Below are positions 1 through 17,107 of a stretch of DNA of 22,343 nt, piece by piece (position 1 is the first letter of the stretch; each line of letters opens with the position of its first letter). Location: IMG/VR virus record IMGVR_UViG_3300009008_001135, positions 1 through 22,343 of that record; one strand, written 5' to 3'. The notes under the pieces were generated by a model. It saw only the letters and a list, made by a program, of their open reading frames with translations. It was not told the origin of the DNA and did no database searches. This stretch comes from a virus. Both the position numbers and the translations under genes were made by a program.

Positions 1-2387
1 TCCTTCATAAGTTTTTTCAGCTTGTCCATAAACTCATCTTTTGTATTTATGCGAATATCCTCACCCTTATCAAGTCCATTATAAAATACATCCATTTGTA
101 TCCCTCCATCCTCACCATCAATCTTTTCAGTTAAATAATCTATGTTCAGCCTATAATTACGGAATACCTGCTTCAATTTTCGCCCATCCTTTTTTCGCGT
201 AGTTAAACCTTCTTCAACCTTTTTCATCTTCCCACTCTTTTCAAGATTCACAATAGCCTTGGCTTCTACTTTATCTATTGATTGTCCCTGCAAAGAAAAA
301 ATCATTCTCTTACTATTCTTATCCAAGGTCTCCAAATGCTTCATGGTATCTCTTAAATCCTGTAAATCATCCAGGGTAAGGTCTTGTATATTCCTTTTAT
401 CCAACCTATCTAAATCCTTCTTTGCTCTCTCGGACAAGAACGCTTCCGGATGTTCATCAAAATAATCTTTCATTGCCGCCAAATCCAAATACTTCTTCTC
501 TGTCATAGCAGTTAAATCCAAAGAATCCTTAATTTTCTCAATAGGGTCTCTGTAACGAGCCAACATCCCTTTGGTTTTAATTCCCTTAATATCGGCTTTC
601 AATTTGTTGACTCTTTTACTCATTTCTTTTCTAGCTCTAGTATTGATTTCTACTTGTCTTTTCCTCGCTTTCTCAGCCTTAATACCACTCTTTTTACCTG
701 CAAAATATCCTCGCCTTGCCCCTACTGCTTTCCCCTCCATTTTAGCTCTCAAAAGCGTTTTCTCTCTGACTTTCTTCATCTCACCAATTCTGACATCTTT
801 CATAATATCCCTAACAGTAACCTTGCCTGACATCTCATCTATGCGTGCATTTACCTTGTTATCTACCCATTGTTTGTATTTTGTCTCAAGTGGTTCGGTA
901 CTTGCAGGTTTTTTTCTATTAGCCCACGTATCTTTCAATGTGGTAAAAATATCATTAGTATCAGGAATAGTTTGCTCACCCCATTCCTCCATAATCTTCT
1001 GATCTAAATCACTAAATTTCTCAAGGAAAGCAGATAAGGTTTTACTAGGATGTGTACGCATTTTTTGTTCAGCAAACTTGATAGCCGAAGATAAATCCAT
1101 ATCCATCAGCCCTGGTATTACCTTCTTGTATCTACCTAAATTCCTGCTATAATCATCTAAAAATTGTCCATGATTCTCCGTATAAGCCTCTCCAGCCACT
1201 TCTGCTTCAATCAATTCCAAATCTTCATCAGGTATTTCTATAAAACCATCCTCGTCCCCATAAATACCTTGCTGTAATTGAGCAAATTTTGCAGGGTCTT
1301 TTATCCCTTCCGGTATTTCTGGATACAAAGCCATCAACCTATTCTCCCCAAAAAAACTAGAGAGTATGGGCGAAGTCCTTGCCCCCACAGCCTCCAATGC
1401 TTGTTCAAACACAGCTGGCACAGTTTTACTGGTTACAGTCTCTGCCTCCACTAAAAACTTGGAAACTGTACCCGATTGAGCTTCTTTCGGTAACCAATTA
1501 AGAATATTCTTAAACCACTCAACCCATGCTCGTTTTGTTTTTATAGTTATTCCTTCTACGAATCCACCTTCAGCTTTTGTTTGTTCAGCTAGTTTTAAGA
1601 ATGCTTCCTTGTGTTTAAATACATTCGCTATAGCCTGGTTACCATCAGAAGTTATAGCACTAACATTACCAGTTCTATAGCCTCTAACTGAAGACAAAAT
1701 TTCACTCGAGAAAATCCACTTCTCATCAAACTTAATTTTATCTAAACCTTTTATTGCAGCAGATGTTGTAAAATGAATACCTGCTGCTAATACACCAGTT
1801 AAAATAGCATTAACAGCAGACTCGCCTATGCTAGCCCCTTCTCCGTAAGCACTTAAACCACCTTCCGCACCCCAATATAAACTTGTTTTAGCTAAACCTT
1901 TAGCAGTTGTCCCTGATATAAGCTTAGGCAAAAAAGTTTGTCCTTGACTTCCAAGATAATCAGAGAAACTAGCTTTTACACCTGTTGTTAATGCCTTTGT
2001 GCCAGAATACCCTACAGCAGCTTTAAGTCCAACCAATCCAAGTTCTCCAACAGCAGCAACAGTCAAAACATCAGCTATATCTTCTGCTGCCTGTCTAAAT
2101 GTAGTCGGAGGAGTTATTCTACCAATATTTTCACCACTAGGTAGTGTCAAAGTCTTTTCTTCTCCTGTGATAGCATAATAAGCAATACCATAAGTCAACA
2201 TTGTACCTAGTCTAATTGCAGGTTCGACAACTATATCCTGAACAAAACTCACAACCTTCTGCCCTATTTTTGTTCCAAATTGAGCTGATATTGTAATCGC
2301 ATCTGTATCTTCTCCAAATGTAGTCTTGCCAAAAATAACACCCTTCCTTTTATCCTCCTCTAATGTAGTAGTTGGAAATAGACTCAT
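1..2387 (-). CDS. Large internal virion / polyvalent-type ejection protein (3' end outside window)
   Basis: An open frame runs from ATG at 2387 to the left edge with no stop, about 795 residues, so the C-terminus is missing. Residues about 60-230 are rich in Gly, Ala and hydrophobics with helix-like stretches. Residues about 480-600 are very basic (GKAVGARRGYFAGKKSGIKA and following). The last 180 residues are charged and helical and contain a segment of the form DLTLDDLQDLRDTMKHLETL. To me this resembles helical regions of the very large polyvalent proteins that some podoviruses eject with their DNA; that is family recognition from memory, not a search. It follows the CHAP protein gene with an 18-nt gap. 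TTTAAC lies 12 nt before the ATG. Plus-strand frames inside it (such as 571-1002) are shadows. The frame was checked at several points. Confidence is high that it codes, moderate on role. Confidence 0.85.
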   Translation of the reverse strand, partial: MSLFPTTTLEEDKRKGVIFGKTTFGEDTDAITISAQFGTKIGQKVVSFVQDIVVEPAIRLGTMLTYGIAYYAITGEEKTLTLPSGENIGRITPPTTFRQAAEDIADVLTVAAVGELGLVGLKAAVGYSGTKALTTGVKASFSDYLGSQGQTFLPKLISGTTAKGLAKTSLYWGAEGGLSAYGEGASIGESAVNAILTGVLAAGIHFTTSAAIKGLDKIKFDEKWIFSSEILSSVRGYRTGNVSAITSDGNQAIANVFKHKEAFLKLAEQTKAEGGFVEGITIKTKRAWVEWFKNILNWLPKEAQSGTVSKFLVEAETVTSKTVPAVFEQALEAVGARTSPILSSFFGENRLMALYPEIPEGIKDPAKFAQLQQGIYGDEDGFIEIPDEDLELIEAEVAGEAYTENHGQFLDDYSRNLGRYKKVIPGLMDMDLSSAIKFAEQKMRTHPSKTLSAFLEKFSDLDQKIMEEWGEQTIPDTNDIFTTLKDTWANRKKPASTEPLETKYKQWVDNKVNARIDEMSGKVTVRDIMKDVRIGEMKKVREKTLLRAKMEGKAVGARRGYFAGKKSGIKAEKARKRQVEINTRARKEMSKRVNKLKADIKGIKTKGMLARYRDPIEKIKDSLDLTAMTEKKYLDLAAMKDYFDEHPEAFLSERAKKDLDRLDKRNIQDLTLDDLQDLRDTMKHLETLDKNSKRMIFSLQGQSIDKVEAKAIVNLEKSGKMKKVEEGLTTRKKDGRKLKQVFRNYRLNIDYLTEKIDGEDGGIQMDVFYNGLDKGEDIRINTKDEFMDKLKKLMK

Positions 2388-2405: not shown

Positions 2406-5366
2406 TTATTTTAATTTCCACTTTTGTTTATCTTCATCATATTTATAGCCTAGTCCTTCAAGAAAATCCTCGGCTTCCGTAGCAGAAAGCCCATAATCCT
2501 GCTCAAGACGTACAATAACTTCCTCTGGCGTATATTCTCCGCTTTCTAATTTTGGACCTACATCGGAAGCAATCGCCTCTGATTCCAGTAACTGATATTC
2601 TGAAACACTTGAAACTAACTCATTAAATGCTTCTAGTTCTTCTGAAGTATCCAAATATTCTCTCGCCGCGTCTACATCTGACTGAGTAAAAGATCCTTTA
2701 TCTTGATAAGCAGAATCTAAAAGAGTCGTAGCCATACCTAAATTATCACTACTGGAATCATCAGATTTGTAAGGAATAGTTGTCGAATAAGTCTCTACGC
2801 CTGAAGGACTCAATCCTTCAACTTGATAATCGAAAGTTGGCATGATGTAACTTGCCTCAACAGGATGCCAGAATCCTATCACACTAGAATCATCTAATGC
2901 CAAAGTCCTTCCTGTAGTTACTGTATTTGAACGATAATTGGCTTCTTCAAGTATCATCTCGCCACCTGAAGTAAATCCTACAATTATGGCTGTATGTCCC
3001 CAAGTACCTTCTGAAGTTTGAACAACGTCTCCTACTTGTGGCATATCTTCTTCTATCGTAAATCCGTATAAATCTACCCATGATTCCCTGTTTGCAATAC
3101 TATCCAACCCATAAGGCATATTCGAATACTGTTCCCTCACATAAAACACACAATTACCTGCATAATCACCGCTATAAGCTATCTCTACCATGTCTCCAGT
3201 AGCACTCGAAGTCATACCCTCAATCGGCTGTATATTCCCATATTTATCAGTCGCAACAAGATAACCAAGCTGTTCAGATAGCTGTGCATTATAAGTATAA
3301 GTCATAGGCTCATATTCTACTACCAAGGACTGTGCCAAAAACTCTTCCGGCAATCCTAGCGCTGAAGTATAATCCATCATTGAGTCCTTGACACTATCAG
3401 GCAAACTATCCCAATCTTTTCCTGCATAAGTATTTATCAACGTACTTAAATTATTAGCAGCATCATTCTTTTCAGTCTGTGCTATATCAAGAGCAAGAGA
3501 AGTTTCTTGATATGCTCTATTCCACATTTCATTGGATACGTCAAATTCCCACTGTTTTTGATCCTGTTCAATCTGGTATAGGTTATTCGTTAAGGTAGTT
3601 AAGGCTGTTAATTGTGTAGTTTGTACTTCTTGTAAAGACATTATCTCACTTAACGCAATCTCATCCATTTTAGTATTATATGCTTCATACGCTGCACTTT
3701 CTTTTGCTGCTAAACTTATCCCTTGTTCTTCTACAGTATTTAAGTAAGTATACATTAACTGTGTTTTCGCATTCTCTAATTGCAAATCAGCAGCCCAGTA
3801 ATTCGTATCATATAAGGTTAATTGAGCCTGTGCATTATCAATTACAGTTGCCATCAAGCTTAATCCTGCCGAACTATCAGCAGCCCCCATCCAATTTAAT
3901 TTAGCTTTCATATATCCTTCAAGACGTGCGTTCTGTTGTTCCATTTGTCCCTTTGTATAATTATATTCTGCTTCCAGTGCTACCTGCTGTGCTTCATAAG
4001 AAGAAACACCCAAATCCGCTTGTTGTTTTGCCACCTTGACAAGCAGGGATTCCATTGTGGTAGCTGTTACCTTTGCTCCCTCCTCAGTCCAATCTATATC
4101 AGTAATTAAATCCATCTCTTCTATTGCTGTCTGGTTAGTTGATAAAACACCCTGTAATGTTTCTTCTGTCCTTGCAGCAATCGAGCTATAAACATTCTGT
4201 AATGCCGTGAAATAATCATTACTTTGGTCAATAGCTGTCTGGGCTAAGATCAACTGCATCATCTCACCAGAACTCGTAGTCGATAAGTCCTGGTCCTCAC
4301 CTATCAAACCTTCCAACATAGAATTTAAACTACTGAAATCCATTGAAGCATACCCTACAAGCTCTTCTAAAAGAGTACTCGTACCAGAAGCAGTATAAGT
4401 ATAAGTATCTTCTTCGGTAGTTTCGAGGACATCATCAACTACCTGGTCATTTACGCTACCTCCCTGATTCCTCCACTTGCTCAGGGCTTCCTGATACTTG
4501 GCTACCCCTTCGTCTCCATAAACAGCCCTAATTGCGTTCAGATGAGGCTGTTTCTCACCGGCCATCATCAAATCAACATCATCACTGGAAAATCCTAGTT
4601 CTGTCAAAGCTTCTGTATCAGCTACCTCTGTTTCCACAAACCCCTGTAAAATAGCCTTAATCTCATCCTCAGAAGCACCATCCTGATAAGCTTTTTGTAT
4701 TGCAGCTTGTAGCTCCTCGTTAGAAGTATCAATCTGTACTCCTAATTCTTGCTCCAAGCCTGTAAGTTGATTCGTAAAATCTGTCTCAAATTCTCCTAGT
4801 GTTGACAGAAACTCTTGTCGCTGTTCTAGGAACTGTTCATTCAAAGAAGTTAATTGGCTAGAGAGTCCGGTTATTGTGCTATATAACTCAGTTAATTGTG
4901 CCGATATCTCTGTTGTATCGGTAGTAACTGTAGTCGTAGTTACTTCAGGAACTTCTTCGGTAGTAACTTCGGGAACTTCTTCTACAGTTACTTCTCCCGT
5001 ATGAGGTGTGATCTGCTGACCAGTCTCAGTTGGCGTATATGTATGCGTCTCTGGTTCAGGCTCAGGCCCAGCTGCTGCTGCTGCAATAGATTCTGCTGCT
5101 GCCGCTGCCGCTTCCTGAAAACCTGTAAATCTACTCATTAAATCCTGACTTTGCTGCAAGGATTCCGCTCGCTGCCCTTCAGGATCTACTTCAGAGCTGG
5201 TAAATAAAACCCCCGTCTCTGTTAAGGTTGCAGTACCTGTCTGACCAGCTTCAAATCCAGTAAGAGTAATTCCACTTATATCGGATTCTTGCTGTTTACC
5301 ACCTCCGACATCCTGTTCCAATACGATACCGTCCTCGGTAACTCGAAATGTTACTTCTGTAGCCAT
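2406..5366 (-). CDS. Tail-tip/tape-measure-like virion protein with CHAP peptidoglycan hydrolase domain
   Basis: 986 residues. The first 75 are beta-rich; residues about 85-150 are low complexity (an Ala run, then EPEPE and Val-Thr-Glu-Pro repeats). Residues about 150-640 are Gln/Glu/Leu-rich and mostly helical, with coiled-coil potential, as in tape-measure or internal virion proteins. A CHAP domain covers about 730-840: the catalytic Cys is in AGNCVFYVREQY (near residue 738), the His in WGHTAIIVG (near 790), and the acidic partner probably in MILEEAN. CHAP enzymes cut peptidoglycan as amidases or endopeptidases; on a virion protein this suggests local wall digestion during DNA entry. A helical tail of about 140 residues follows. 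The leader is AT-rich with no clear YYTAAC. It could be called a tail lysin or a tape measure; the gene order suits an ejected podovirus protein. Confidence 0.85.
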   Translation of the reverse strand: MATEVTFRVTEDGIVLEQDVGGGKQQESDISGITLTGFEAGQTGTATLTETGVLFTSSEVDPEGQRAESLQQSQDLMSRFTGFQEAAAAAAESIAAAAAGPEPEPETHTYTPTETGQQITPHTGEVTVEEVPEVTTEEVPEVTTTTVTTDTTEISAQLTELYSTITGLSSQLTSLNEQFLEQRQEFLSTLGEFETDFTNQLTGLEQELGVQIDTSNEELQAAIQKAYQDGASEDEIKAILQGFVETEVADTEALTELGFSSDDVDLMMAGEKQPHLNAIRAVYGDEGVAKYQEALSKWRNQGGSVNDQVVDDVLETTEEDTYTYTASGTSTLLEELVGYASMDFSSLNSMLEGLIGEDQDLSTTSSGEMMQLILAQTAIDQSNDYFTALQNVYSSIAARTEETLQGVLSTNQTAIEEMDLITDIDWTEEGAKVTATTMESLLVKVAKQQADLGVSSYEAQQVALEAEYNYTKGQMEQQNARLEGYMKAKLNWMGAADSSAGLSLMATVIDNAQAQLTLYDTNYWAADLQLENAKTQLMYTYLNTVEEQGISLAAKESAAYEAYNTKMDEIALSEIMSLQEVQTTQLTALTTLTNNLYQIEQDQKQWEFDVSNEMWNRAYQETSLALDIAQTEKNDAANNLSTLINTYAGKDWDSLPDSVKDSMMDYTSALGLPEEFLAQSLVVEYEPMTYTYNAQLSEQLGYLVATDKYGNIQPIEGMTSSATGDMVEIAYSGDYAGNCVFYVREQYSNMPYGLDSIANRESWVDLYGFTIEEDMPQVGDVVQTSEGTWGHTAIIVGFTSGGEMILEEANYRSNTVTTGRTLALDDSSVIGFWHPVEASYIMPTFDYQVEGLSPSGVETYSTTIPYKSDDSSSDNLGMATTLLDSAYQDKGSFTQSDVDAAREYLDTSEELEAFNELVSSVSEYQLLESEAIASDVGPKLESGEYTPEEVIVRLEQDYGLSATEAEDFLEGLGYKYDEDKQKWKLK
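4938..4995 (-). repeat. 24-nt tandem repeat inside the CHAP protein gene
   Basis: Two nearly identical 24-nt units (4938-4961 and 4962-4985) are followed by 10 nt of a third. They encode the EEVPEVTT-type repeat of the low-complexity linker between the Ala-rich segment and the coiled coil. The length keeps the reading frame, so copy number can change without breaking the protein. Confidence 0.8.
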
Positions 5367-5383: not shown

Positions 5384-6565
5384 TTAAGCGTATCTAATTA
5401 TGTAATTCAAGGTTATATAAGGCGGCATATTCTCATGCGCAGTATCAGAACCAGTTGAACTTGTTGCGGTAGAACCACCAGATTCCATTCCTGCACCAGT
5501 TCCTCCATGTAATGTATCACCAGCATGTACAGAAACAGTATGGGTGTGAGCTGGTAATTCTGCTGTTACAAGAGTATGTGTCTCAGAACCTTCTGTACCA
5601 CCAAGAGTATCAGCATTCGCATGAGTAACAACATTAGCACTTGCACCACCCATATCATCTTGACCAAGAGGAAGTCGTCCTCTTAAATCTGGAAGATTAA
5701 ATGTAGTCGAACCATCTCCAACCCCATAAGTTGTACTAATAACTGCAAACAGTGTTGCGTAAGTTGATCTTGAAACAGCACTACCATCACAAAGCAGATA
5801 ATTAGCAGGAGCTGTATCCGTAGTCCATAATAATAATGATCCAATAGGCACAGGCGGTCCATCATTTAACCAATCATTATCAAGCTTATTACTACCATCT
5901 GCCACAGGTACAACACTTGCCGCAGGAGTAGCATTAAATACATTTGTGTCAGTCAAATCACACGCAATTACTCCAGCAGTAACTGTAATACCATTACCAC
6001 CACTAACACCAGCACCAGTACCGAAAGGCGTACTAGAAGAACCATCGTCAGAATAAATCCAGCCAGAGGTACCACTATCATAAGCGAAATAAGGTTTATT
6101 AGCATCAGCATTTTGAGCGTAAAAGAATATATCGACATCTGTTTCATCACCAACTCTAAAAGCAGTACCTGATGTACCATTTGTACCATCCATAATATTG
6201 TTAATCTGTTCAACTCCCTCATGGTTAGATACGCAGCCGATAGAATCACCAGGACGATGATTGTTACCGGTAGTAGTTCCTGCACCAATACCGAATAACG
6301 GTATAGTTCGCCCATTAGTAGCAATCGTGATTGTAGTTATTCCACTAGCAGTCGAATGTGAACTTGCCATGATACGTTCAGCACGAGAGTTATCCTTGTT
6401 GATAATAAAATCCAAGGTAGTAGATTGCGGTGTTCTTGCCGCTTTGGTTTTTGTGTCAAAGAATCTAACCGTAAAGGTAGAACCATCACCATCACTTGAA
6501 GATAGTGAGGTAACAAGTGTACCTGCTAGGTTAGTTTCCTGACTGACGAGAGTTGCAATAGCCAT
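5384..6565 (-). CDS. Phage tail collar-domain protein (short tail fibre type)
   Basis: 393 residues. Residues about 238-310 are a clear tail-collar domain: PVPIGSLLLWTTDTAP, then YLLCDGSAVSR, then TTFNLPDLRGRLPLGQD. The C-terminal part has the His-rich ELPAHTHTVSVHAG segment and ends in PPYITLNYIIR, the usual close of collar or microcystin-dependent-type proteins. The first 230 residues are Thr/Ser/Gly-rich beta structure, probably the virion attachment and shaft, with a linker VPVADGSNKLDNDWL just before the collar. Such proteins sit at the tail and contact the host surface. The gap to the upstream propeller gene is 2 nt and to the CHAP gene 17 nt, so they are one transcription unit. No YYTAAC; TATAAT is 9 nt before the start. 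Confidence 0.87.
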   Translation of the reverse strand: MAIATLVSQETNLAGTLVTSLSSSDGDGSTFTVRFFDTKTKAARTPQSTTLDFIINKDNSRAERIMASSHSTASGITTITIATNGRTIPLFGIGAGTTTGNNHRPGDSIGCVSNHEGVEQINNIMDGTNGTSGTAFRVGDETDVDIFFYAQNADANKPYFAYDSGTSGWIYSDDGSSSTPFGTGAGVSGGNGITVTAGVIACDLTDTNVFNATPAASVVPVADGSNKLDNDWLNDGPPVPIGSLLLWTTDTAPANYLLCDGSAVSRSTYATLFAVISTTYGVGDGSTTFNLPDLRGRLPLGQDDMGGASANVVTHANADTLGGTEGSETHTLVTAELPAHTHTVSVHAGDTLHGGTGAGMESGGSTATSSTGSDTAHENMPPYITLNYIIRYA

Positions 6566-6567
6566 AT

Positions 6568-8172
6568 TTATGTGATTATAGAATTATTGATTAAATTATC
6601 AGGTATCTCCTGTTCTGACTTGTAATCATACTTAATATTGAAATAATCTATCCTAACAGGTCTGCCTTCACCTTCATACCAAAATTCATACCAGAACTCA
6701 TGTCCCTCATTTACATTAGCTGGTAACTGAATCCTTTGCGCAAATCTGTAATACTGATAATCGTCACCAGTACCATCTGCACCAATGTACTCTGCGCCAA
6801 TATCATCATCTCCAATATATCCACCACTAACAGATGTAACTAACGCAGTATCATCTATTTCAAATGTCTGGCTTTCACCATCCGCATGAGCTGTTAAATA
6901 AAATATCGCTCCTTCCGGCATAGCACCTGCTATTTCAATGTAAGGAGTTTTCTTCTTCAGAAGCTCAGTTCCGAAGTTAAATGTTTTAGTACTATACCTG
7001 CGTTCATACTCTTGATTTGCAAACGAATAATCATCTGTTACAAACCTATAAACCTTGTCTTCTGTCGAACTACCCCAATACAGTTCTTCATCTGTATCTT
7101 CACGATGAATAGCAAAATCAGCAATAGGAAGATTCTTATAAACCCATGAATTATATTTTGTACTGTAAACAAACGTCTGGTTATTGTCAGTAAACGCATC
7201 TCCGATAGGTACAGACAACCAGTAATTCTTGTTAAAAAACGCACCTGCTGCCATTTCTTGATACTCATAATTCATGCTTTGAATAATTGGATCAATCTTC
7301 CATGACACACTATTCACAACAAAATTATCAGTATTAAGTTCCAAATCCTGTCCATAAAATTTCACACCTTCTCTCGACAAGAAAAACGTATCATCATAAA
7401 CCTGCTGACATGCTTTGTGAGCTACTCCGCCTGTACCCAGCATTACATCGTTCTTAACAGGAGTATAGGTATAAGTCGCATCGTCAAAGCTAAACGTAAC
7501 TTCCTGCGCATGATTATCTTCCATCAGAACTAGAAGTGTCTTGTTGGCTGTTTTCTTAATACCCAGAATTCTATTATTGAATCCTATCGTACCACCTCCT
7601 GCAAAATCATCCTCGTCTTCGGAAGCATTATAATAAAGTGTTCTGTCGAGAGCCATAAATAAGAATCCTAACATCTCTTCTACTGCATAAGCTCCTAAAG
7701 GAGAATCTGTTAAATCAGCAGAAGTCAGAGTGCCTGGAGCTGATTGATAAACTCTTTTAGCTCTAAATCCTGTATTGCTAGGAGCTACTATCAGATTAGG
7801 AGTAGAACTAGCACCTTTATATTCAACTGTACCTACATACGAACTAGCACCAGCAAATGTCCCGATAGAACTAGCTGTACCAGCAGAAATATTTATTTGA
7901 TAAATCACATCATTCGATACAGCTACCAAATATCTGTTATCAGAATCATGCGTAAACGAGGCAAGAGCCTGGATTTTAGAGCTAGTACCGAGGTCTACTA
8001 CCTCCTCATACCCAGGACTCGTCACTATTGCCCCTTTTTGCGTGATATCCCAGTTTTTTATGAGTGTAGCCTCTGCTGGCTCGCCTGAGTAGTCAGGAGC
8101 GATGCTACGGGCATTATAATCGTTATTTTGGCCTAACGAGAAATCTCTGATTGTAAAAAATTGTGCTGCCAT
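6568..8172 (-). CDS. Beta-propeller-like tail/neck protein (nozzle or stabilisation type)
   Basis: 534 residues, almost wholly beta structure, with repeated blade-like strands such as KIQALASFTHDSDNRYLVAV, VEEMLGFLFMALDRTLYY and TLLVLMEDNHAQEV, and later YWLSVPIGD and TFVYSTKYNSWVYKNLP. The strand pattern and its place between adaptor and collar genes fit the propeller-type proteins that extend the podovirus neck (P22 gp10-like stabilisers, T7 gp12-like nozzles). The C-terminal 130 residues look like a separate beta-sandwich (FYLTAHADGESQTFEID, then RIQLPANVNEGHEFWYEFWY). Its ATG overlaps the TAA of the adaptor gene by one base (TAATG), so translation is probably coupled. No exact YYTAAC. The family call is from pattern and position; a receptor-binding role is possible. 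Confidence 0.65.
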   Translation of the reverse strand: MAAQFFTIRDFSLGQNNDYNARSIAPDYSGEPAEATLIKNWDITQKGAIVTSPGYEEVVDLGTSSKIQALASFTHDSDNRYLVAVSNDVIYQINISAGTASSIGTFAGASSYVGTVEYKGASSTPNLIVAPSNTGFRAKRVYQSAPGTLTSADLTDSPLGAYAVEEMLGFLFMALDRTLYYNASEDEDDFAGGGTIGFNNRILGIKKTANKTLLVLMEDNHAQEVTFSFDDATYTYTPVKNDVMLGTGGVAHKACQQVYDDTFFLSREGVKFYGQDLELNTDNFVVNSVSWKIDPIIQSMNYEYQEMAAGAFFNKNYWLSVPIGDAFTDNNQTFVYSTKYNSWVYKNLPIADFAIHREDTDEELYWGSSTEDKVYRFVTDDYSFANQEYERRYSTKTFNFGTELLKKKTPYIEIAGAMPEGAIFYLTAHADGESQTFEIDDTALVTSVSGGYIGDDDIGAEYIGADGTGDDYQYYRFAQRIQLPANVNEGHEFWYEFWYEGEGRPVRIDYFNIKYDYKSEQEIPDNLINNSIIT

Positions 8173-9305
8173 TAGCGTGAAAAGTAATTAAGTCGTTCAT
8201 ATCTTGATTTAAGACGTTTAGCTGTATTCCCATAAACACCCTGCCATGAAGCCAGGGCATTTCTGATCTCTGTTTGTTCCACATATTGTGAAGCTTCATA
8301 CTCACCTGCATTCAGCAGAAGCCTACGAAGCGCCAGTAACGCTATTAACTCAATTGATTTATCTGACAATAAACTGTCATCTGAACCTATGCTCATAGTA
8401 GTAGGATCTTGGATATAATGTACTAAGACCTGATCTACAGTTGTATCATTCAAGAAAAACCGAAGTCCTGCATCAACCATCGAATAATCATAAGTACAAA
8501 CATCACCCTCTCTTCTGTAGAATTCGTCAGGATCAGTCTTAAGATACTCGCTTCCTGTATCTAAATCTTCAACCATCAACACACGATTAAGTGTACTTAG
8601 ATCAGAAGGAAAACTTCCTACCATCCAATCAGAATTAGCAGGAATCACCTTCATAGCATCAAGTAAGAAACTCGAACTAGAAGATTCTGTTATTTCGATC
8701 TGTACCCAGTCTACGGCTGTCCAATCTACAGTTCCCGTATATGTAAAATCCTTGAGCGGAAGTCTTCTGCTACCCCAGTTATTATCATTAGCAATAGTTA
8801 CAGCATATTCTCCATAATTGGATGAATCATTGCCTATCCTAATGGTAAAAGCTGAATGAGCAGTATAATCCGTAAAATTAAAATAAAAGAACAGAAATCC
8901 TGCTACCGGAGTACCAGTTCTTCTGCCTGTATAACTTGAATAATCATTCGAGGTTACAGCTCCTGTCCAAGTAGCTGTATTGCTAGAATTAGTCCAACTG
9001 AAACTACCAGAATAAGAACCCTCATTGTAAGTAGTACTGCTTGTAGGAGCAACACCATCATCTGATTCTGTCCAGACAGCTTGAATGGCTCCATCTGTAG
9101 CATATTCAAAAGCATCTACAGTATCTCCATATCTCGTCAAAGTTATAAACTCTTTCTTCCTGAACTCTTCAGGTTTATATTCATCTGTAAACTCTTGCAC
9201 TGCATAATTTATTGCAGCAGTTCGAGCTTCATCTGTATGAAAGGTTTCGGATGTAGTTCCTAGCCTTCTTGACAGGACTACATCATACTCGTCTAAAGTT
9301 GACAT
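8172..9305 (-). CDS. Head-tail adaptor/connector with an inserted carbohydrate-binding-like domain
   Basis: 377 residues. Residues 1-80 (AAINYAVQEFTDEYKPEEFR) and about 245-377 (DDSLLSDKSIELIALLALRR, then GEYEASQYVEQTEIR) fit the helical adaptor proteins that dock under podovirus portals. Between them, about residues 85-225, is a Ser/Thr/aromatic-rich jelly-roll-like segment: FLFFYFNFTDYTAHSAFTIR, then RIGNDSSNYGEYAVTI, then WVQIEITESSSSSFLLDAMK. That strand order, ending in a DAMKVIP strand, is typical of carbohydrate-binding modules. I infer a sugar-binding domain carried on the neck. CTTAAC precedes the ATG by 11 nt and includes the TAA stop of the gene upstream. It is followed by the propeller gene with a one-base overlap. 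Confidence 0.65.
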   Translation of the reverse strand: MSTLDEYDVVLSRRLGTTSETFHTDEARTAAINYAVQEFTDEYKPEEFRKKEFITLTRYGDTVDAFEYATDGAIQAVWTESDDGVAPTSSTTYNEGSYSGSFSWTNSSNTATWTGAVTSNDYSSYTGRRTGTPVAGFLFFYFNFTDYTAHSAFTIRIGNDSSNYGEYAVTIANDNNWGSRRLPLKDFTYTGTVDWTAVDWVQIEITESSSSSFLLDAMKVIPANSDWMVGSFPSDLSTLNRVLMVEDLDTGSEYLKTDPDEFYRREGDVCTYDYSMVDAGLRFFLNDTTVDQVLVHYIQDPTTMSIGSDDSLLSDKSIELIALLALRRLLLNAGEYEASQYVEQTEIRNALASWQGVYGNTAKRLKSRYERLNYFSR

Positions 9306-9317
9306 ATTTTAAAAGGG

Positions 9318-9947
9318 TTAAGGAGCAGTAGGAGGTATAGTAAGCGTCACTGTAACAGTTCCTGCGGCAATGCTTTTAGAAACAATAGGCCACACATAAA
9401 GCAGAACATTATTGGCATCTATAAAATGGTAACCTGTATGGGTATCATCAATTGCAGCAGGACCAAATTTGTCCCGTGGAAGTTGAATATAATTATCAGC
9501 AATATGAACATCATCCACACCATTCGGCATTGTGCTTTGTGGAAACGCCCACGTTGAGTTGCCTACAGGATTATGCGACATATCAGCATTTGTATTATTG
9601 TACAAATTCGCAAACTCCTTCAGATCTCCTGCTAACGGGTGTGCTGGCAAAGCTTTAGCTGCTGGACTGTCTCCTGGCTCTGGTTCTGTATACAGAGACG
9701 GATTATCAGCTATAAATGTATCCAGATCTGTTCGTAAGATTCTCCTGCAACTAGGTATTGCTAATAACTGAGCACGTTCTTCTGCGCTCTTTACAGCGAC
9801 AGGTATAATGTAACAAGTCTGATCTTGCGACAGCGCAAGTTCATAATTATGACCATCTCCACCTACATTTTCTGCATCATTTATGGCAACCCAAGCATCA
9901 AAGGTTTCCTTGAGAATAACGAAGTAATCTTTTGTATAAGTCGGCAT
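9318..9947 (-). CDS. Unrecognised virion-cluster protein, 209 residues
   Basis: I do not recognise this family. The first 80 residues look alpha/beta and soluble (KDYFVILKETFDAWVAINDA, then CYIIPVAVKSAEERAQLL). A Pro-rich linker follows near 88-105 (PEPGDSPAAKALPAHP), then a segment with several Asn, Asp and His, and a C-terminal beta stretch GTVTVTLTIPPTAP. It lies between the glycan-binding-like protein (3-nt gap) and the adaptor (12-nt gap), so a neck or tail role is likely from position only. TCTAAC lies 9 nt before the ATG and overlaps the last codons of the upstream gene. No signal peptide or membrane segment is seen. Confidence 0.75.
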   Translation of the reverse strand: MPTYTKDYFVILKETFDAWVAINDAENVGGDGHNYELALSQDQTCYIIPVAVKSAEERAQLLAIPSCRRILRTDLDTFIADNPSLYTEPEPGDSPAAKALPAHPLAGDLKEFANLYNNTNADMSHNPVGNSTWAFPQSTMPNGVDDVHIADNYIQLPRDKFGPAAIDDTHTGYHFIDANNVLLYVWPIVSKSIAAGTVTVTLTIPPTAP

Positions 9948-9950
9948 AAA

Positions 9951-11141
9951 TTATCGGTTAGATTGTAATAAAGCTTCAATAAATTCTTTCTCACTCGCAG
10001 TAGTAGTATTTGGGATACTGGCGATCACTTCAAAAGGCCCTTTCCCTGGCCAACCTGCGCTACCAGTTGAACTTATATAGCCAGCATGACAATAAGCAGT
10101 ATTATTGGCATAAATCGGGTCAACATGTGCACCTGTTGAATAAGTAACTGGGTAGTCAGTCCCATTAACCCTTGTCTCTTCCGTGCCACCTGCACCATCA
10201 TATTCGTGAAGTATAACAACCCTACCCAGTGAATACGGACTTGTTCCGCTACCATTATAGATTGAATGTGTTGCGCCATCATCGCTCACATAGCCTCTAA
10301 CAGTATCTGCACCATAGTAATTCAAGGCATGAACAATGCCTTTTTTAGAATTATACTCATCCCATCCGGATTGAATACCTTTACAGGTAGCACTTGGTGT
10401 AAAAAGTGAAATCATAGTAACTTCACTTGTAAAATCAAGATCACCACCACTATTCCAATTCAGAGCATAATCACTTGAATTTGAATAATCATAGCTTTTA
10501 CCATCCCAGGCTGCCGGATCATATCCCATCGGAAACATATTCGCGTGTATATCATTCTGAACAGGGCGGAACTCAAAATCATCAACAAGAACTGTCAACG
10601 GTGTACTTGTACCAGCATTGTAAACTTGACAGGCTAAAGTAGTACCAAAAGGAAACTGTAAGTACCGTGTCCCTTCAACAGCACCATCAGAAGAATCAAA
10701 AGTCTCCTCCATCGCTCTATACCAAGGTGTCCATGCCACAATTCTAATTTTTGCGTACCCTGCTGTAACTCGGATTTTAAAATTAAACTGATATGTCTGA
10801 TTTAAAGTAATTCCTGCTGTAATACTTTGTGAAAATATAGCATTTCCGTAATCAGTATCGCCAGTAGTTAGCTGAGCGCTTGTACCACTAGAATCCCAAG
10901 GCAAAGTAGTTTCCTCCGAAGGCGTACCTGTACCAAGATGATTCCAGTCGTCTGCGATTCCACCAGTAAATGTCTCGAATCCACCATTTGAAAGTACAGC
11001 ACCAGCTGCACCTAGATTTAGATCAGTATCCGTAAGGTTTCTAACGCAACCCTCCATCATATTTCTATAATCATACACTTTGTCAGCCCCCATCTGTCTA
11101 AGGACAAATGCAGCGTCTTGTACTGGACTTGGAAAAATCAT
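9951..11141 (-). CDS. Virion protein with two glycan-binding-like beta-sandwich domains
   Basis: 396 residues. The N-terminal 45 residues (PVQDAAFVLRQMGADKVYDY) may be a virion anchor. Residues about 48-195 look like a carbohydrate-binding module of the CBM4/9 type: VLSNGGFETFTGGIADDWNH, then FSQSITAGITLNQTYQFNFK, closing with TVLVDDFEFRP. Residues about 230-396 look like a concanavalin/LamG-type lectin fold: EVTMISLFTPSATCKGIQSG, then RVVILHEYDGAGGTEETRVN, then GKGPFEVIASIPNTTTASEK. Such modules bind cell-surface polysaccharide, so I infer host adhesion. TAAAC, a variant of the start motif, lies 10 nt before the ATG. The gap to the next gene is 3 nt. No catalytic motif is visible. Domain calls are from strand patterns. 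Confidence 0.65.
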   Translation of the reverse strand: MIFPSPVQDAAFVLRQMGADKVYDYRNMMEGCVRNLTDTDLNLGAAGAVLSNGGFETFTGGIADDWNHLGTGTPSEETTLPWDSSGTSAQLTTGDTDYGNAIFSQSITAGITLNQTYQFNFKIRVTAGYAKIRIVAWTPWYRAMEETFDSSDGAVEGTRYLQFPFGTTLACQVYNAGTSTPLTVLVDDFEFRPVQNDIHANMFPMGYDPAAWDGKSYDYSNSSDYALNWNSGGDLDFTSEVTMISLFTPSATCKGIQSGWDEYNSKKGIVHALNYYGADTVRGYVSDDGATHSIYNGSGTSPYSLGRVVILHEYDGAGGTEETRVNGTDYPVTYSTGAHVDPIYANNTAYCHAGYISSTGSAGWPGKGPFEVIASIPNTTTASEKEFIEALLQSNR

Positions 11142-11153
11142 ATTATTTAAAGT

Positions 11154-11882
11154 TTAGTAAGTATAAATACTTGCAAGGTTACCATCAGCTGAATCACGAA
11201 TTACACTAAAAGTTGCATCTCCAAATGGAAATGGACCATATAAAATATTCTTAATTATCTTAATATCCGGTAATGCAGCTGTAGCTGTAGTAGTGAAATT
11301 GATATGACAATCTTCATCTGCATAAAAATAAATTTCATTAGGTGTATTTGCTAATGTTACATCTGATGCTGAACTTGTAAAAGCATCAACCTCCTGATTA
11401 ACAGAACCACCTGATGCACTACCCCGCGAAGCAACTGAATAAGATGTAGCAGTAAGTGAAACTTGCGTAGATGCCTTCTTGATATAAGCAATACCATGAA
11501 CATAATCTACACAATAATCACCATCAGTTTGCAAATGTGCATCAAACAAAGTAAGTCTATCTGTAAAATTACTTCTGTCTACAGAATCATAATCAGTAGG
11601 AAGAGGTACTTCTGTCGTAGCAGCAGTTGAAGTAAATGAGAGCGAAGTGTCATTGTTAGAAGCTGGCATATCACCTAAGAAATTCAATATAGAACCTTGG
11701 GCAAATTTAGCAGCCACTACAGTACCAACAACTTGACCTGCGTCGACTGTTGGAGTGCCTGAACTATCATAATAAAACTGAACAGTTTCCCCTGAAACTG
11801 ACCTCACTCTTTTAGAGTCATCAATTGCTTCCGTTGGCATACCTCTTGAAGTAGAGACATAATTTTGGTTGTCGAGTAACAT
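11154..11882 (-). CDS. Unrecognised beta-rich virion-cluster protein, 242 residues
   Basis: No family recognised. The sequence is Thr/Ser/Asp-rich with short beta strands: ETVQFYYDSSGTPTVDAGQV, then YCVDYVHGIAYIKKASTQVS, then NEIYFYADEDCHINFTTTAT. It has no membrane segment or coiled coil, which suits an exposed structural protein. It is the first gene after a 106-nt intergenic region with two competing hairpins, so its expression, and that of the downstream tail genes, may be set there. TTTAAC lies 10 nt before the ATG. A capsid-decorating or neck role is possible from position alone. Confidence 0.75.
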   Translation of the reverse strand: MLLDNQNYVSTSRGMPTEAIDDSKRVRSVSGETVQFYYDSSGTPTVDAGQVVGTVVAAKFAQGSILNFLGDMPASNNDTSLSFTSTAATTEVPLPTDYDSVDRSNFTDRLTLFDAHLQTDGDYCVDYVHGIAYIKKASTQVSLTATSYSVASRGSASGGSVNQEVDAFTSSASDVTLANTPNEIYFYADEDCHINFTTTATAALPDIKIIKNILYGPFPFGDATFSVIRDSADGNLASIYTY

Positions 11883-11892
11883 AATTGTTTGA

Positions 11893-11898
11893 GTTAAA
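11893..11898 (-). promoter_or_regulatory. YYTAAC start-associated motif of the 242-residue protein gene
   Basis: TTTAAC lies 10 nt before the ATG at 11882, in a non-coding leader. It is therefore not explained by codons or by an upstream stop. Confidence 0.5.
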
Positions 11899-11936
11899 AG
11901 ATTTATATCCCCTATTACAGTATCCGACGTTTGTCA

Positions 11937-11981
11937 CCCCCTGATTCTGTAAGAGAGGGGGGAGTTTCAACCTACTCCCCC
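11937..11981 (-). promoter_or_regulatory. Two mutually exclusive hairpins between the 84-residue and 242-residue genes
   Basis: Read on the minus strand, GGGGGAGT (11981-11974) pairs perfectly with ACTCCCCC (11965-11958) across an 8-nt loop. The same C-tract, as CCCCCT (11961-11956), can instead pair with AGGGGG (11942-11937) across a 13-nt loop. Both cannot form at once, which is the layout of an attenuator or regulatory switch. Neither is followed by a T-run, so a simple intrinsic terminator is unlikely. The first hairpin begins 7 nt after the stop of the 84-residue gene, so ribosomes could influence which form folds. Confidence 0.55.
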
Positions 11982-11988
11982 AAAAGGT

Positions 11989-12243
11989 TTATTTGCCCTC
12001 CTTCGGGACGGGCTTTTCTTCTTTTTTCTCGGCCTCTTTCTCCGCTTCGACCTCCTCTTTTTTCTTAGCTTCCTCCTGCGCCTTGAGAATCTCAGCGGCA
12101 TTTACAGGATTTCTGAGGAGTCCCTTAACGTGAATAAGAGACACTGCCTGGTCTTCACCTCTGACCTGGCGAGCTTCAACAGAAGCTAGTAGGTATTGCA
12201 CTACGTCCTCTGTGAACTCGTACTTGTAGAGTTGGTTTTCCAT
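11989..12243 (-). CDS. Small helical phage protein, 84 residues
   Basis: Residues 1-55 are helical (YKYEFTEDVVQYLLASVEAR, then AVSLIHVKGLLRNPVNAAEI) and resemble small uncharacterised proteins often found in phage structural clusters, with a pattern of aliphatic residues ending in L-x-N-P. Residues 55-84 are a Lys/Glu-only charged tail (EEAKKKEEVEAEKEAEKKEE). No catalytic motif is seen. CTTAAC precedes the ATG by 10 nt. The gene lies between the fibre-like gene (52-nt gap) and the hairpin region. The lagging charged tail could be an assembly or folding helper for its neighbours, which is speculation. Confidence 0.78.
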   Translation of the reverse strand: MENQLYKYEFTEDVVQYLLASVEARQVRGEDQAVSLIHVKGLLRNPVNAAEILKAQEEAKKKEEVEAEKEAEKKEEKPVPKEGK

Positions 12244-12253
12244 GACATATATG

Positions 12254-12259
12254 GTTAAG
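12254..12259 (-). promoter_or_regulatory. YYTAAC start-associated motif of the 84-residue protein gene
   Basis: CTTAAC lies 10 nt before the ATG at 12243, well clear of the upstream gene, which stops at 12296. Confidence 0.5.
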
Positions 12260-12276
12260 AAATAAAACTTCTAAAT

Positions 12277-12289
12277 GGCCATTATGGCC
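12277..12289. repeat. Perfect inverted repeat GGCCAT-T-ATGGCC after the fibre-like gene
   Basis: A 6-bp palindromic pair with a single central base begins 6 nt after the fibre-like gene stop. As RNA only a 4-bp GGCC stem with a 5-nt loop is likely, and no T-run follows closely. It may be a protein-binding site, a weak RNA hairpin or chance. Confidence 0.4.
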
Positions 12290-12295
12290 TCAATC

Positions 12296-14932
12296 TTAGG
12301 ACATTGCAGTCCATTTAAGTGTAACTGTACCAGTAGCTAACAAGCTTGTTGAAGCACCAGCCCAGTTATCAGCTGCGTTATAGTGAACTGTCTTGGTATG
12401 ACCAGACATGTTCATTGAGATACCAGTCATAACACCTGCTACAGCAGCAGACATATTCACATCAACCGAACCATTACAGTCTGTTGCCGCAAAACCTGTG
12501 ATGTAATCCTCCATGGTAGTACCATTCAATGCAGCAATAGCACCTGAACCAATTACTGATCCGATACCACAATCAGGTGTATCAGCTTGGATAGCTGCAT
12601 CACCTTGTAGTGCAACACTTGAATATGTAACTTCATGGACATGAGCACCAGCAGGGAATGTGTAGATCAAAGCTCCGACAGCTAAGTTACCTGCACCTCC
12701 AATAGCACCTAGATCAGCATTCGTAAGTGTAAGAACAGTAACATGGTTACGTCCATCACCATACTCTTTAGCTGTTACATTTGTGCCAGGAGTACCAACA
12801 GTTCCAGTATTTGTGATGTCACCATCAACAACAAGATCACCAGAACCGTTCATGTTCATTTCAATGTTTCCATTTGCTCCATCAATAATTGAAATGTCAC
12901 TTGTAGTTGTATTCCCAGTCCTGAGTACAAGATCCTGGTTACCTGATGATTGCAACATGCCAGAAGTGGCACCGTCACCAACAGCAACTGCGTTAACTGT
13001 ATGTAGAAGCCTTAATCTTTCAGTAAGAGTTCCTTGATTATCAATCGCGAAACTCATGTCTGAATCAGGATTCGCCGCTGAAATATCGTCGACTATTACG
13101 TCAATACGACCATAGTCTTCGTCTGCAACAGCGTCGTCTTCACCTGTAAAGAGAATTCGTCCTACCACATCAGCATTAGCTTGCGAGCCTCCTTGATGTG
13201 AAAGTCGTAATACAGGACCAACAGCACCTCCATCAACTGAACGAACTTCAACTTCACCAGAAGTAGCTGGTTGAAGAATAATAACTTCAGCAGCACCATC
13301 TTTAATGGTAATGCTTCCAGTACTCGCATTTCCAGTTTGAAGTACAAGATCAAAGTTACCACTACTCGAGATAGTTGCATCATTACCACCACTACCAACT
13401 GCTATTTTACCTGTAGTGTCTGGCTGTAGCACAATGTCTCCTGCTGCACCATCTATAATCGAAATCACACCAGTCGTAGCATTTCCTGTCTGGATATTGA
13501 TGTTGTGATCTCCGGAAGATGTAATAGTAGCACCTCCGTCACCAACTACCAAAGTAGAAGCCATCAATGAAACGCCAACATTATCAAGACGTAGAAGTTC
13601 AGTAAGAGAGTTGTTAATCAACACACTCCAACCAAGCCTACCATCTTCGGTGGTATCAGTTTCGTCAAGGATAGTAGCATCCATACGACCATAAACAGTT
13701 TTATTACTACCATCATCCTCACCTGAATAATTAATTCGTGTAATCACATCATTAATCGCAGGAGAGCTTGAGTCATGATGGTATTCTGCAATAACACCTA
13801 TAGCACCGCCATCAGTTTGCCTAACAGACAAAACGTCTGCATTAGCTGCGTCTGAAATCAAAATAGTTTCACCACCAGAGACAGTAAGATCACCATCACT
13901 AACGACAAGATCACCAGATTGTACTTCAGCAGCAGTTGTACCTTCAGCAGTACCTTGCATAAGAACTCTACCATCTTCGCGTACAGCAAATACTTCTGTA
14001 GTTGTGTGCATATCTACCACGGAAATCGCTGACCCAGTACCACCCATTGTGACACTGTTGATATTTACACGAAGTACGTCACCAGTAGTAACAGAAGTGC
14101 CATCGATTAGTACTCCAGTACCAGTAGTAACAGCTGATGGATTAAGGGTCATTGATGTACCACTTGTAGTAGTAGCATCAACAAGATTTACAGTTCCGTC
14201 TGTCATAACAAGATTACCTGAGCTTAGAGTCAAGTTACCTGAGGTTAAGACTGCGTTACCTGTAAATGTAGAAGTCCCAGCCACTGTTCCATCAATAGCA
14301 GCAGTAGGATTTAAATTAACTGTATCAACATAAGCATTCGCGTAATATAAAGGTCCTACGGAACTACCTAAATCGTCAGTCGAATCGACACTTGGGACAA
14401 TGTTACCTGTAGTAGACATAACACCAGCTCCTGTACCAGCAATATCAGCAGTCGCATTAAAATTGACTGTTTGAACCCAACCATTTAACCAATAAGACCC
14501 AGAAGAACCAAGGTCATCAGTCAAGGTTGTATCAGAAACAAGAGATGTATTAATAGCAACAGCAGCAAGATTATCAAGGGCTACTGTAGCTCCACCAGCA
14601 CTACCAATCAGATCAAAATTACAAGCTGTAGTTGTACCTACATTCTCATAAAGTCCTGATGTGCCAGCTCCTACATTAGTGTCGATATATAAACATCCTT
14701 TAGCGTAACCAGCAGCTCCATCATTAAGAGTTGCAGTACCAGAAGCATAAAGAACGTCATCGTTTTCATCCCTGTCATAAACAAGGACAGTTTGGCTGTT
14801 GATGCCCGTAGAAACTCCAGGTCTTGTAAAAGAACCTGTGGCATCAACAACCTCATTACCGCCTACTTGGATTGAACCATAAACATTCAACCCACCTAAG
14901 GCAGTTGAGTCACCTATTATAGTTCTAGCCAT
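12296..14932 (-). CDS. Repeat-built head-fibre or decoration-like virion protein, 878 residues
   Basis: The protein is Gly/Thr/Ser/Asp-rich beta structure with several internal repeat types. Two DLGSS...VNxNxTA units lie near residues 139 and 185. Three SSGxxxxxxxTGNxxT units lie near 470, 520 and 660. Two long modules start at GGAIG (about 373) and GGAVG (about 565), each holding a GEDD motif, a YGR motif and an LTExLRL motif. This is typical of elongated beta-helical or triple-stranded fibre shafts. The C-terminal 150 residues (YTFPAGAHVHEVTYSSVALQ, then CGIGSVIGSGAI) look like a globular beta domain. The gene lies 19 nt after the major capsid gene with TTTAAC 11 nt before its ATG, so I infer a capsid-attached fibre. 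A tail fibre is the alternative. Confidence 0.65.
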   Translation of the reverse strand: MARTIIGDSTALGGLNVYGSIQVGGNEVVDATGSFTRPGVSTGINSQTVLVYDRDENDDVLYASGTATLNDGAAGYAKGCLYIDTNVGAGTSGLYENVGTTTACNFDLIGSAGGATVALDNLAAVAINTSLVSDTTLTDDLGSSGSYWLNGWVQTVNFNATADIAGTGAGVMSTTGNIVPSVDSTDDLGSSVGPLYYANAYVDTVNLNPTAAIDGTVAGTSTFTGNAVLTSGNLTLSSGNLVMTDGTVNLVDATTTSGTSMTLNPSAVTTGTGVLIDGTSVTTGDVLRVNINSVTMGGTGSAISVVDMHTTTEVFAVREDGRVLMQGTAEGTTAAEVQSGDLVVSDGDLTVSGGETILISDAANADVLSVRQTDGGAIGVIAEYHHDSSSPAINDVITRINYSGEDDGSNKTVYGRMDATILDETDTTEDGRLGWSVLINNSLTELLRLDNVGVSLMASTLVVGDGGATITSSGDHNINIQTGNATTGVISIIDGAAGDIVLQPDTTGKIAVGSGGNDATISSSGNFDLVLQTGNASTGSITIKDGAAEVIILQPATSGEVEVRSVDGGAVGPVLRLSHQGGSQANADVVGRILFTGEDDAVADEDYGRIDVIVDDISAANPDSDMSFAIDNQGTLTERLRLLHTVNAVAVGDGATSGMLQSSGNQDLVLRTGNTTTSDISIIDGANGNIEMNMNGSGDLVVDGDITNTGTVGTPGTNVTAKEYGDGRNHVTVLTLTNADLGAIGGAGNLAVGALIYTFPAGAHVHEVTYSSVALQGDAAIQADTPDCGIGSVIGSGAIAALNGTTMEDYITGFAATDCNGSVDVNMSAAVAGVMTGISMNMSGHTKTVHYNAADNWAGASTSLLATGTVTLKWTAMS

Positions 14933-14943
14933 AATAATATAAG

Positions 14944-14949
14944 GTTAAA
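14944..14949 (-). promoter_or_regulatory. YYTAAC start-associated motif of the fibre-like gene
   Basis: TTTAAC lies 11 nt before the ATG at 14932, in the 19-nt gap after the capsid gene. Confidence 0.5.
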
Positions 14950-14951
14950 TA

Positions 14952-15848
14952 TTATACAATCCAATGAGTACCTAAATAGTCAACAGCACCAGCGTTACAA
15001 GCCAGGTCAATTTGAACAATGTCATTACCTGTGTTTGTATCACGGTCTGGTGTTAATTCAGGTCCGTAAGCGATCTGATACTCTAATCGGTGCATCATCT
15101 TGTCAGAGACAAGAGCAGCTTCCCAGTTAGCAGTATCATCAAGTTGTTCCCAGACAACTGGGATAATTCCAGATTCTGTAACAACATTGATAGATGTGTT
15201 AGCATCTTCAGGTGTCATAGGAGAACCTAGAAGTTTCTTCGCAGTGTGCATGTTCCTTGTAGGAACGACCAGATACTTAGGTTGAAGACCCATAATTGTA
15301 CCATTGTGGTCTTGTTGCATGCGAAGTGCTTCAATAGCTGATTCAAGATTAGCCAATGTCAACGAACCTGTTGTGGTGTTATCTTGGGTAGCGCCTGTAT
15401 CACCTATAAGGTGAGCAGCATTAGCCAAAGATAAGCCATCCCAGGTAACTGTTGTGCCTGCTGCTGCGATCAATAGATCAGCAGCAAGTGCATCCATCCT
15501 GATTCTAGCTAAATAGCCAAGTTTTTGTGCATCTTCAAGAGCAGAACCATAATGATCTTTTTCTTTCATCATTTTAGTAATATGAACTGCTTCTTTGAAG
15601 ATAAGTTGTGCGACAGTCTGCGTACCAACAACTTTAGGATTTTGTTGGTTGTATGCAGCGCCATCAGAAACTGCGTTGAACGCAGCCGACATTCCACCTC
15701 GGACTGAGAAAGTTTCCTCAAATCTTTGGTTCGGGTCCATCCGGAAAATTTGCTCATATTTTGACTGATACCCTTGGTATCCAGCATCAAAAGATTTCGC
15801 TATCTCCAACTGTACCTCTGTCTCATAATTATGATATGTAACTGCCAT
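14952..15848 (-). CDS. Major capsid protein
   Basis: 298 residues, forming the icosahedral shell. It has an N-arm (MAVTYHNYETEVQLEIAKSF), an extended region with FEETFSVRGGMSAAFNAVSD, and a spine-helix-like segment EAVHITKMMKEKDHYGSALE. A domain follows with ANLESAIEALRMQQDHNGTI and the strand PKYLVVPTRNMHTAKKLLGS. The C-terminal part VSDKMMHRLEYQIAYGPELT, then a strand ending DYLGTHWIV, matches how HK97-fold capsid proteins with a Mu-like or encapsulated-DNA topology close. Length and position after scaffold- and decoration-like genes support this. There is no N-terminal delta domain and no nearby protease. TTTAAC lies 10 nt before the ATG; the gap to the upstream gene is 26 nt. Confidence 0.9.
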   Translation of the reverse strand: MAVTYHNYETEVQLEIAKSFDAGYQGYQSKYEQIFRMDPNQRFEETFSVRGGMSAAFNAVSDGAAYNQQNPKVVGTQTVAQLIFKEAVHITKMMKEKDHYGSALEDAQKLGYLARIRMDALAADLLIAAAGTTVTWDGLSLANAAHLIGDTGATQDNTTTGSLTLANLESAIEALRMQQDHNGTIMGLQPKYLVVPTRNMHTAKKLLGSPMTPEDANTSINVVTESGIIPVVWEQLDDTANWEAALVSDKMMHRLEYQIAYGPELTPDRDTNTGNDIVQIDLACNAGAVDYLGTHWIV

Positions 15849-15858
15849 AATTTATTCA

Positions 15859-15864
15859 GTTAAA
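15859..15864 (-). promoter_or_regulatory. YYTAAC start-associated motif of the capsid gene
   Basis: TTTAAC lies 10 nt before the ATG at 15848. As this should be one of the most strongly translated genes, the lack of any purine-rich site here is informative. Confidence 0.55.
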
Positions 15865-15874
15865 GAATTAAAGT

Positions 15875-16348
15875 TTATTGAAGATTGAATGGAACTACAA
15901 CGTCGATGGTCTCATTACCAGAAGTACTGTCATAGGTGACAATAGTAAGAACACCGTTTGAGGTATCATTCTCATCGATTTCTTGGTCAGCAGCAGCCAT
16001 TTCAAGTGTAACTTGAGTGTCAATGATTGCTTGGGCAAGATTGCCTGGTGTATCAGGAGTACCACGGACAACAAGTCCGCTTGGATGGAACATAATTTCT
16101 ACCGTACCATCAGCTAGTGCTGTATCAGTTGAATTAGATACAGCCATACCTACCCATGAAGAAGTAGAAGAAGCTCCATCACCAGCTTTTGCCACATAAC
16201 CTGGATTACTACCATCGACAATAACAAGATCACCAATAGCAATCGAAGCAGCAGCTCCAGCAACAACATCAAAAACTCGTGTTACTGGTGAATCGCCACC
16301 TACTGTACCAACAACCCTGAAGTCTCCTGTGTATTGTGTTGCGGCCAT
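15875..16348 (-). CDS. Probable capsid decoration/stabilising protein, 157 residues
   Basis: A small all-beta protein: FRVVGTVGGDSPVTRVFDVV, then ASIAIGDLVIVDGSNPGYVA, then WVGMAVSNSTDTALADGTVE and VEIMFHPSGLVVRG. The pattern of a value or attribute loop (GDLVIVD, GYVAKAGDG, VGMAVS, GTVEIM) is typical of small capsid-surface proteins that share folds with DUF2190-like or decoration proteins. It lies between scaffold (8-nt gap) and capsid (26 nt). CCTAAC, 11 nt before the ATG, overlaps the end of the scaffold gene. It could instead be a minor head protein. Confidence 0.65.
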   Translation of the reverse strand: MAATQYTGDFRVVGTVGGDSPVTRVFDVVAGAAASIAIGDLVIVDGSNPGYVAKAGDGASSTSSWVGMAVSNSTDTALADGTVEIMFHPSGLVVRGTPDTPGNLAQAIIDTQVTLEMAAADQEIDENDTSNGVLTIVTYDSTSGNETIDVVVPFNLQ

Positions 16349-16356
16349 AGAATTGT

Positions 16357-17097: not shown

Positions 17098-17107
17098 AGT
17101 AATATGG

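Follow-up and report, generated by a model that had tools for sequence, protein, structure and literature searches.

T7-type ejection proteins, as set out in the available text of PMC8954989, are stored within the capsid, exit before the DNA and provide the genome with a path across the cell envelope. Polyvalent proteins are defined, in the available sections of PMC5512222, by the combination of disparate domains. A known counterpart of the protein considered here is Bbp10 of Bordetella phage BPP-1. It carries the annotation 'crystallin beta/gamma motif-containing protein', and the BPP-1 record describes it merely as 'part of the structural protein cassette'; literature searches under the gene name Bbp10/Bbp11 or the other annotated name yielded nothing on Bbp10.

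The Bbp10 core is found in 40 listed phage records, of which those named below were examined. A Pfam scan covered eight giant proteins (BPP-1, vir555, Vibrio 1.185.O, HU1, SR18, CP2, Carin1 and Ab9); Nostoc Nsp-JY18 and Limnohabitans DC33, whose genes are cut by the fetched stretch, and two fecal fragments fell outside it. The eight range from 1,974 to 2,854 aa. LPD22 exceeds the cut-off in six (not vir555 or Ab9), and four contain an enzymatic domain above cut-off: a PBECR1 nuclease in BPP-1, ART-PolyVal in SR18, PBECR5 in Carin1, and PBECR5 together with GNAT in Ab9. Enzyme matches in Vibrio 1.185.O (GNAT) and vir555 (ART) are solely sub-threshold in Pfam. The vir555 giant also matches an endolysin family (phrog_873, residues 611-726), and that of Vibrio 1.185.O a ParB C-terminal family (phrog_2579, residues 949-1032). 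Judged by the positions of the matches, the effector domains of these relatives sit N-terminal of the core: they are confined to the first 1062 residues, and the matches to the Bbp10-type core come after them.

Two of these records are of separate interest. The host of vir555 is given as Methanomicrobiales, and the genome carries a BPP-1-type virion cassette in which one gene is annotated as an internal virion protein and another encodes a Bbp10-type giant; whether the methanogen is correctly assigned, or is an unusual host, is worth checking. Limnohabitans phage DC33 (PQ492659.1) is filed under Inoviridae, yet has a 39-kb genome and a Bbp10-type giant, and that placement looks wrong.

The window analysed here is the whole of the 22,343-base virus record IMGVR_UViG_3300009008_001135. 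IMG/VR classes the record as linear, and its left edge is therefore the end of the record. Running off this edge is a frame of 795 codons (Table 1), which the frame listing gives with a complete N-terminus and no C-terminus. The first-pass annotation had noted at least 795 open residues, leaving the strand unstated, and the frame withstands comparison with chance: when bases 1-2387 were shuffled 500 times, the longest stop-to-stop frame in all six frames was 210 codons. Over 787 codons compared with its one orthologue (below), pN is 0.28 and pS 0.73; purifying selection acts on the frame.

Table 1. Coordinates of features in the window
Feature	Position	Strand	Basis
Ejection / internal virion protein (putative), first 795 of ~1,430 expected residues	3..2387	minus	Start ATG at 2387; C-terminus lost at contig end
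Beginning of the conserved core (residues 557-795), with homology to a section of the Bbp10 / PHROG 28077 core	3..719	minus	PHROG, phmmer, hhalign
N-terminal region (residues 1-556), Ala/Gly-rich in part and hydrophobic in places, without a recognised domain	720..2387	minus	Domain searches, composition
Hydropathy maximum over 19 residues (107-125; Kyte-Doolittle mean 1.79)	2013..2069	minus	Hydropathy
986-aa protein with CHAP murein-hydrolase domain near its C-terminus	2406..5366	minus	PF05257 1.7e-7; PDB 2lrj 9.7e-6, 2k3a 0.0034
CHAP domain, residues 731-810	2937..3176	minus	Pfam
Rest of head/tail cassette: collar-type fibre, tail-like proteins, capsid, scaffold-like (by position only), connector/portal-like, large terminase	5384..20874	minus	Pfam, PHROGs

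The central part of the protein is basic, as had been proposed, with a net charge of +18 in residues 501-600. A charged helical part, proposed alongside it, is plausible by composition; helices do not emerge from the AlphaFold model of residues 1-795, which was built from a two-sequence alignment and has a mean pLDDT of 38.5, too low for a fold to be read. The same is true of the model of orthologue residues 550-1429 (mean 39.3, again from two sequences). A 19-residue mean hydropathy of at least 1.5 is reached in two of the 14 proteins of the record that were examined. The highest stretch of the 795-residue protein (residues 107-125) is only a possible membrane-contacting segment, because the best stretch of the orthologue is lower, at 1.56.

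A complete orthologue is present in a single relative, IMGVR_UViG_3300023210_000168 (27.8 kb), where it spans 1,429 aa and then stops. The two proteins share the N-terminal start MSLFPT and are 59% identical over residues 1-794 (E 1.9e-294). The relative was reached by searching viral_contigs with the terminase and the portal-like protein, which returned two contigs; searches with the 795-residue protein or the CHAP protein singly gave no close relative, and scans with three alignments added no further contig. The second contig, IMGVR_UViG_3300007510_000522 (10 kb), encodes terminase, portal-like and capsid proteins 100% identical to those of the record and has no ejection-protein gene; it and the record seem to be one virus entered twice. 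Two alignment-based scans of genome_contigs found nothing, and hence no host or provirus was identified. Among phages, tblastn with the 795-residue protein (E limit 1) gave one weak match (E 0.7) and with the portal-like protein none at E 1e-3, while the orthologue (E limit 10) retrieved 21 records, the best at E 2e-6.

Provided that the gene continues like that of the relative, the part missing from the record would amount to ~635 aa; its C-terminal part is read from this one relative, the record's own continuation lying beyond the contig end. The leftward extension and domain search suggested in the first-pass annotation could thus be run on the relative's complete copy, where the stop comes ~635 residues on and none of the listed domains reaches cut-off. 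The description 'very large' holds in relative terms, the orthologue being shorter than each of the eight giants. The first gene downstream of the orthologue resembles HNH proteins weakly, below the Pfam cut-off (E 0.0026). The next has a weak papain-type match, likewise below cut-off in Pfam (E 0.011), and matches the peptidase family phrog_16701 at E 9.6e-8; then come a small gene with a hydrophobic stretch discernible by eye and, closing the run, an M23 peptidase gene (Pfam E 1.2e-13). This succession marks the end of the structural cassette. The papain-type gene (16372-16968 of the relative's piece L006) has its NSWG end within the match; it could possibly encode a C1-type peptidase, perhaps a lytic one.

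In the profile search of the visible part that was proposed at the outset, residues 603-786 match phrog_28077 at E 4.9e-9. In the orthologue the same family is the best match (residues 585-1246 to profile positions 707-1358, E 1.3e-37), and phrog_9880, which BPP-1 Bbp10 itself matches with 2331 bits, aligns with residues 960-1234 (E 2.2e-17). Using phmmer, the orthologue has two collinear matches to Bbp10 (580-788 to 1260-1465 and 961-1222 to 1623-1882), and further matches to three more of the annotated giants and to a pair of fecal phage fragments that carry no annotation. As controls for these scores, each of four relatives was shuffled locally 50 times and reversed once, which gave 204 sequences. 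With the full orthologue, all four real relatives score 19.6-35.6 bits against 1.3 for the best control; with the 795-residue protein alone, Bbp10 rises above the best control (13.6 against 3.9 bits), which none of the other three relatives surpasses. A comparison by hhalign with a trimmed four-protein core alignment of Bbp10-type proteins aligned orthologue residues 550-1245 over 635 columns with a probability of 99.4 and, computed on one target, E 5.8e-21; the 795-residue protein alone reached a probability of 34% (E 4.2e-4). On these alignments, residues ~550-1245 and the C-terminal core of the giant Bbp10-type proteins of BPP-1-like phages are homologous. By this core the full orthologue belongs to the Bbp10 / PHROG 9880-28077 family, and the 795 residues alone point the same way more weakly.

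Homology and position lead us to conclude that the gene product is very probably the largest of the ejection (internal virion) proteins in a short-tailed phage. Of the proposal that it is a polyvalent ejection protein, the ejection half gains from the core homology and the murein-hydrolase neighbour; the polyvalent half gains no support. Neither the 795-residue protein nor the orthologue has anything above cut-off in Pfam or NCBIfam, and PADLOC gave no match to either at E 0.1; on these searches no enzyme shows in the missing ~635 aa. Peptidase, helicase, methyltransferase, ART and LPD domains do not reach cut-off anywhere in either sequence; PBECR and MPTase domains were not detected, and LPD22, common in the family and not universal, is absent from both by Pfam. 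The best hit of a PDB profile search with the two-sequence profile (E 0.48) is at chance level, and no solved ejection protein was matched. HExxH, Walker A, GxGxxG, (D/N/S)PP(Y/F/W) and STS are enzyme motifs; the first four are absent from both sequences, as is cysteine, and an STS triplet occurs in the orthologue only, at residue 27. Two sub-threshold Pfam matches to the basic helical stretch, DeaD_dimer (E 0.031, in the 795-residue protein) and Tricorn_C1 (E 0.11), were dismissed as matches of composition.

The expectation that enzymatic domains would follow further on is contradicted by the layout of the relatives: their LPD22 and effector domains precede the core, in a zone that corresponds to residues 1-556 and is complete in the record. 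Effector functions placed in the missing part fare no better, the relative's last ~635 residues having no domain above cut-off. The zone itself still leaves some room for such a function. If the protein is truly polyvalent, released in the host along with the DNA and equipped with an effector domain that has diverged beyond recognition, that domain would most likely sit in residues 1-550, which match nothing in the libraries searched and whose models are too poor for the fold to be judged; half of the giants do carry recognisable enzymes there. Set against the empty searches and absent motifs, and an N-part of just ~550 aa compared with ~1,220 in Bbp10, we consider such a protein improbable. 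A broader version, in which residues 1-550 are an undescribed injected effector or a membrane-channel domain that replaces LPD22 and the PBECR/ART/GNAT cargo, is also unlikely, with a modest chance of being correct; if true, the lineage would show gain or loss of cargo on a conserved ejection core.

The putative ejection-protein gene directly follows the gene for the CHAP protein, where the structural cassette nears its end. The CHAP protein has a single cysteine, Cys739, and a His791, both kept in the relative. Among six phages scanned, the protein just upstream of the giant contains an SLT transglycosylase domain in four (BPP-1, HU1, SR18 and CP2) and lacks it in vir555 and Vibrio 1.185.O; in Carin1 and Ab9 a lysozyme or endolysin is annotated upstream. 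By gene order, the CHAP protein holds the same slot as the SLT protein beside Bbp10.

Several genes in the remainder of the cassette have no match at all. The connector/portal-like protein matches phrog_332 (E 1.1e-8), a family annotated as head-tail adaptor in vir555 and presumably the podoviral portal. Two tail candidates of the record gave no hhalign match to BPP-1-type tail proteins, for which reason we only infer the short-tailed morphology. The protein could instead belong to the tail shaft of a long-tailed phage, for example as a tape measure, being very long, helical-looking and encoded near the end of the tail genes; the hit of a 242-aa neighbour (11154-11882) to a major tail protein (phrog_807, E 0.03) is at chance level. 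Neither the 795-residue protein nor its orthologue matches a tape-measure family in Pfam or PHROGs, however, and their homologues lie in BPP-1-like phages, where a transglycosylase and a protein annotated as internal virion protein are encoded nearby. No sheath or tape-measure family was matched among the 19 frames of the record scanned against PHROGs, although some of the matches are labelled just 'tail protein'. We regard a tail-shaft role as highly improbable and retain the ejection protein as the preferred reading.

Three further features may be recorded. PDB matches of a 377-aa protein to penicillin-binding protein 4 (E 0.029) were taken as chance. The fibre proteins of the record (5384-6565) and the relative (6566-8887 of piece L006) are alike by eye at the N-terminus and different downstream; that of the record has a tail-collar domain, that of the relative (773 aa) no Pfam match, and the difference looks like a swapped receptor-binding part. 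A 134-aa frame on the minus strand (17184-17588), with no PHROG match at E 0.1, overlaps the end of the portal-like gene and has a 132-aa counterpart in the relative (5045-5443 of piece L003).

The translation starts bear on the host. We surveyed 36 ATG starts, 17 from the minus strand of the record and 19 from the 27.8-kb relative; the count leaves out a TTG start at 17588, which has no TAAC, and some frames of the relative, mostly with TTG or uncertain starts. A Shine-Dalgarno 4-mer precedes none of the 36. A TAAC ending 8-12 nt before the ATG precedes 26 (11/17 in the record, 15/19 in the relative). The same placement is seen at 16 of 543 non-start ATGs of the coding strand and at 11 of 235 ATGs of the opposite strand; shuffling 2000 times gave 2.8 on average and 10 at most. 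Position -3 is A in 27 of the 36, and G is nearly absent. In vir555 the corresponding counts are 0/27 for TAAC and 21/27 for Shine-Dalgarno, and in BPP-1 2/16 and 9/16. For Flavobacterium/Bacteroidetes the available text of PMC6847099 gives a lack of Shine-Dalgarno sequences, A at -3 and A-rich positions from -14 to -11; a Bacteroidota host would therefore fit. The conserved T and C of TAAC go beyond the pattern in that text, and literature linking TTAAC with the anti-Shine-Dalgarno was not found.

How such a protein might work can be sketched by analogy with the T7-type ejection proteins, to the extent that the available text of PMC8954989 describes them. The protein would probably be stored inside the capsid above the portal and exit through the tail ahead of the DNA; the neighbouring CHAP protein would open the peptidoglycan, and the ejection protein would help to form a trans-envelope path for the genome. 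The conserved core (orthologue ~550-1245) may be the shared structural and translocation part, and the N-part may touch the membrane or other ejection proteins. As far as one relative can tell, what lies past the contig end is a conserved ejection-family core with no recognisable hidden enzymes. The comparison separates this C-terminal core from the N-terminal effector cargo of the larger relatives, and the protein, compact and otherwise ordinary within a known ejection-protein family, offers structural work a useful minimal case.

Comparison with known systems places the protein as follows. Polyvalent proteins, in the available sections of PMC5512222, resemble it in that the gene lies among virion genes and the core is common to proteins with polyvalent-type domains; they differ in their pair of disparate domains, which neither the 795 aa nor the 1,429-aa orthologue contains. 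T7 gp16 (1,318 residues) is similarly large, with hydrophobic stretches and a murein hydrolase among the virion genes; in the available text of PMC8954989 the transglycosylase is inside gp16, whereas the hydrolase domain here sits on a polypeptide of its own, the CHAP protein. The PDB profile search found no sequence similarity to the gp14-15-16 type. PHROG 28077 (1,524 positions, no function assigned), the best-matching family, is similar in total length to the orthologue, whose N-terminal ~585 residues are outside the match. Bbp10 (2,052 aa, PHROG 9880) has a ~1,220-aa N-part with LPD22 and the PBECR1 nuclease, unlike the ~550 aa without a recognised domain here; it shares the slot directly after the murein hydrolase in the virion cassette and a collinear core, orthologue residues 550-1245 corresponding to about 1222-1900 of Bbp10 at about 20% identity.
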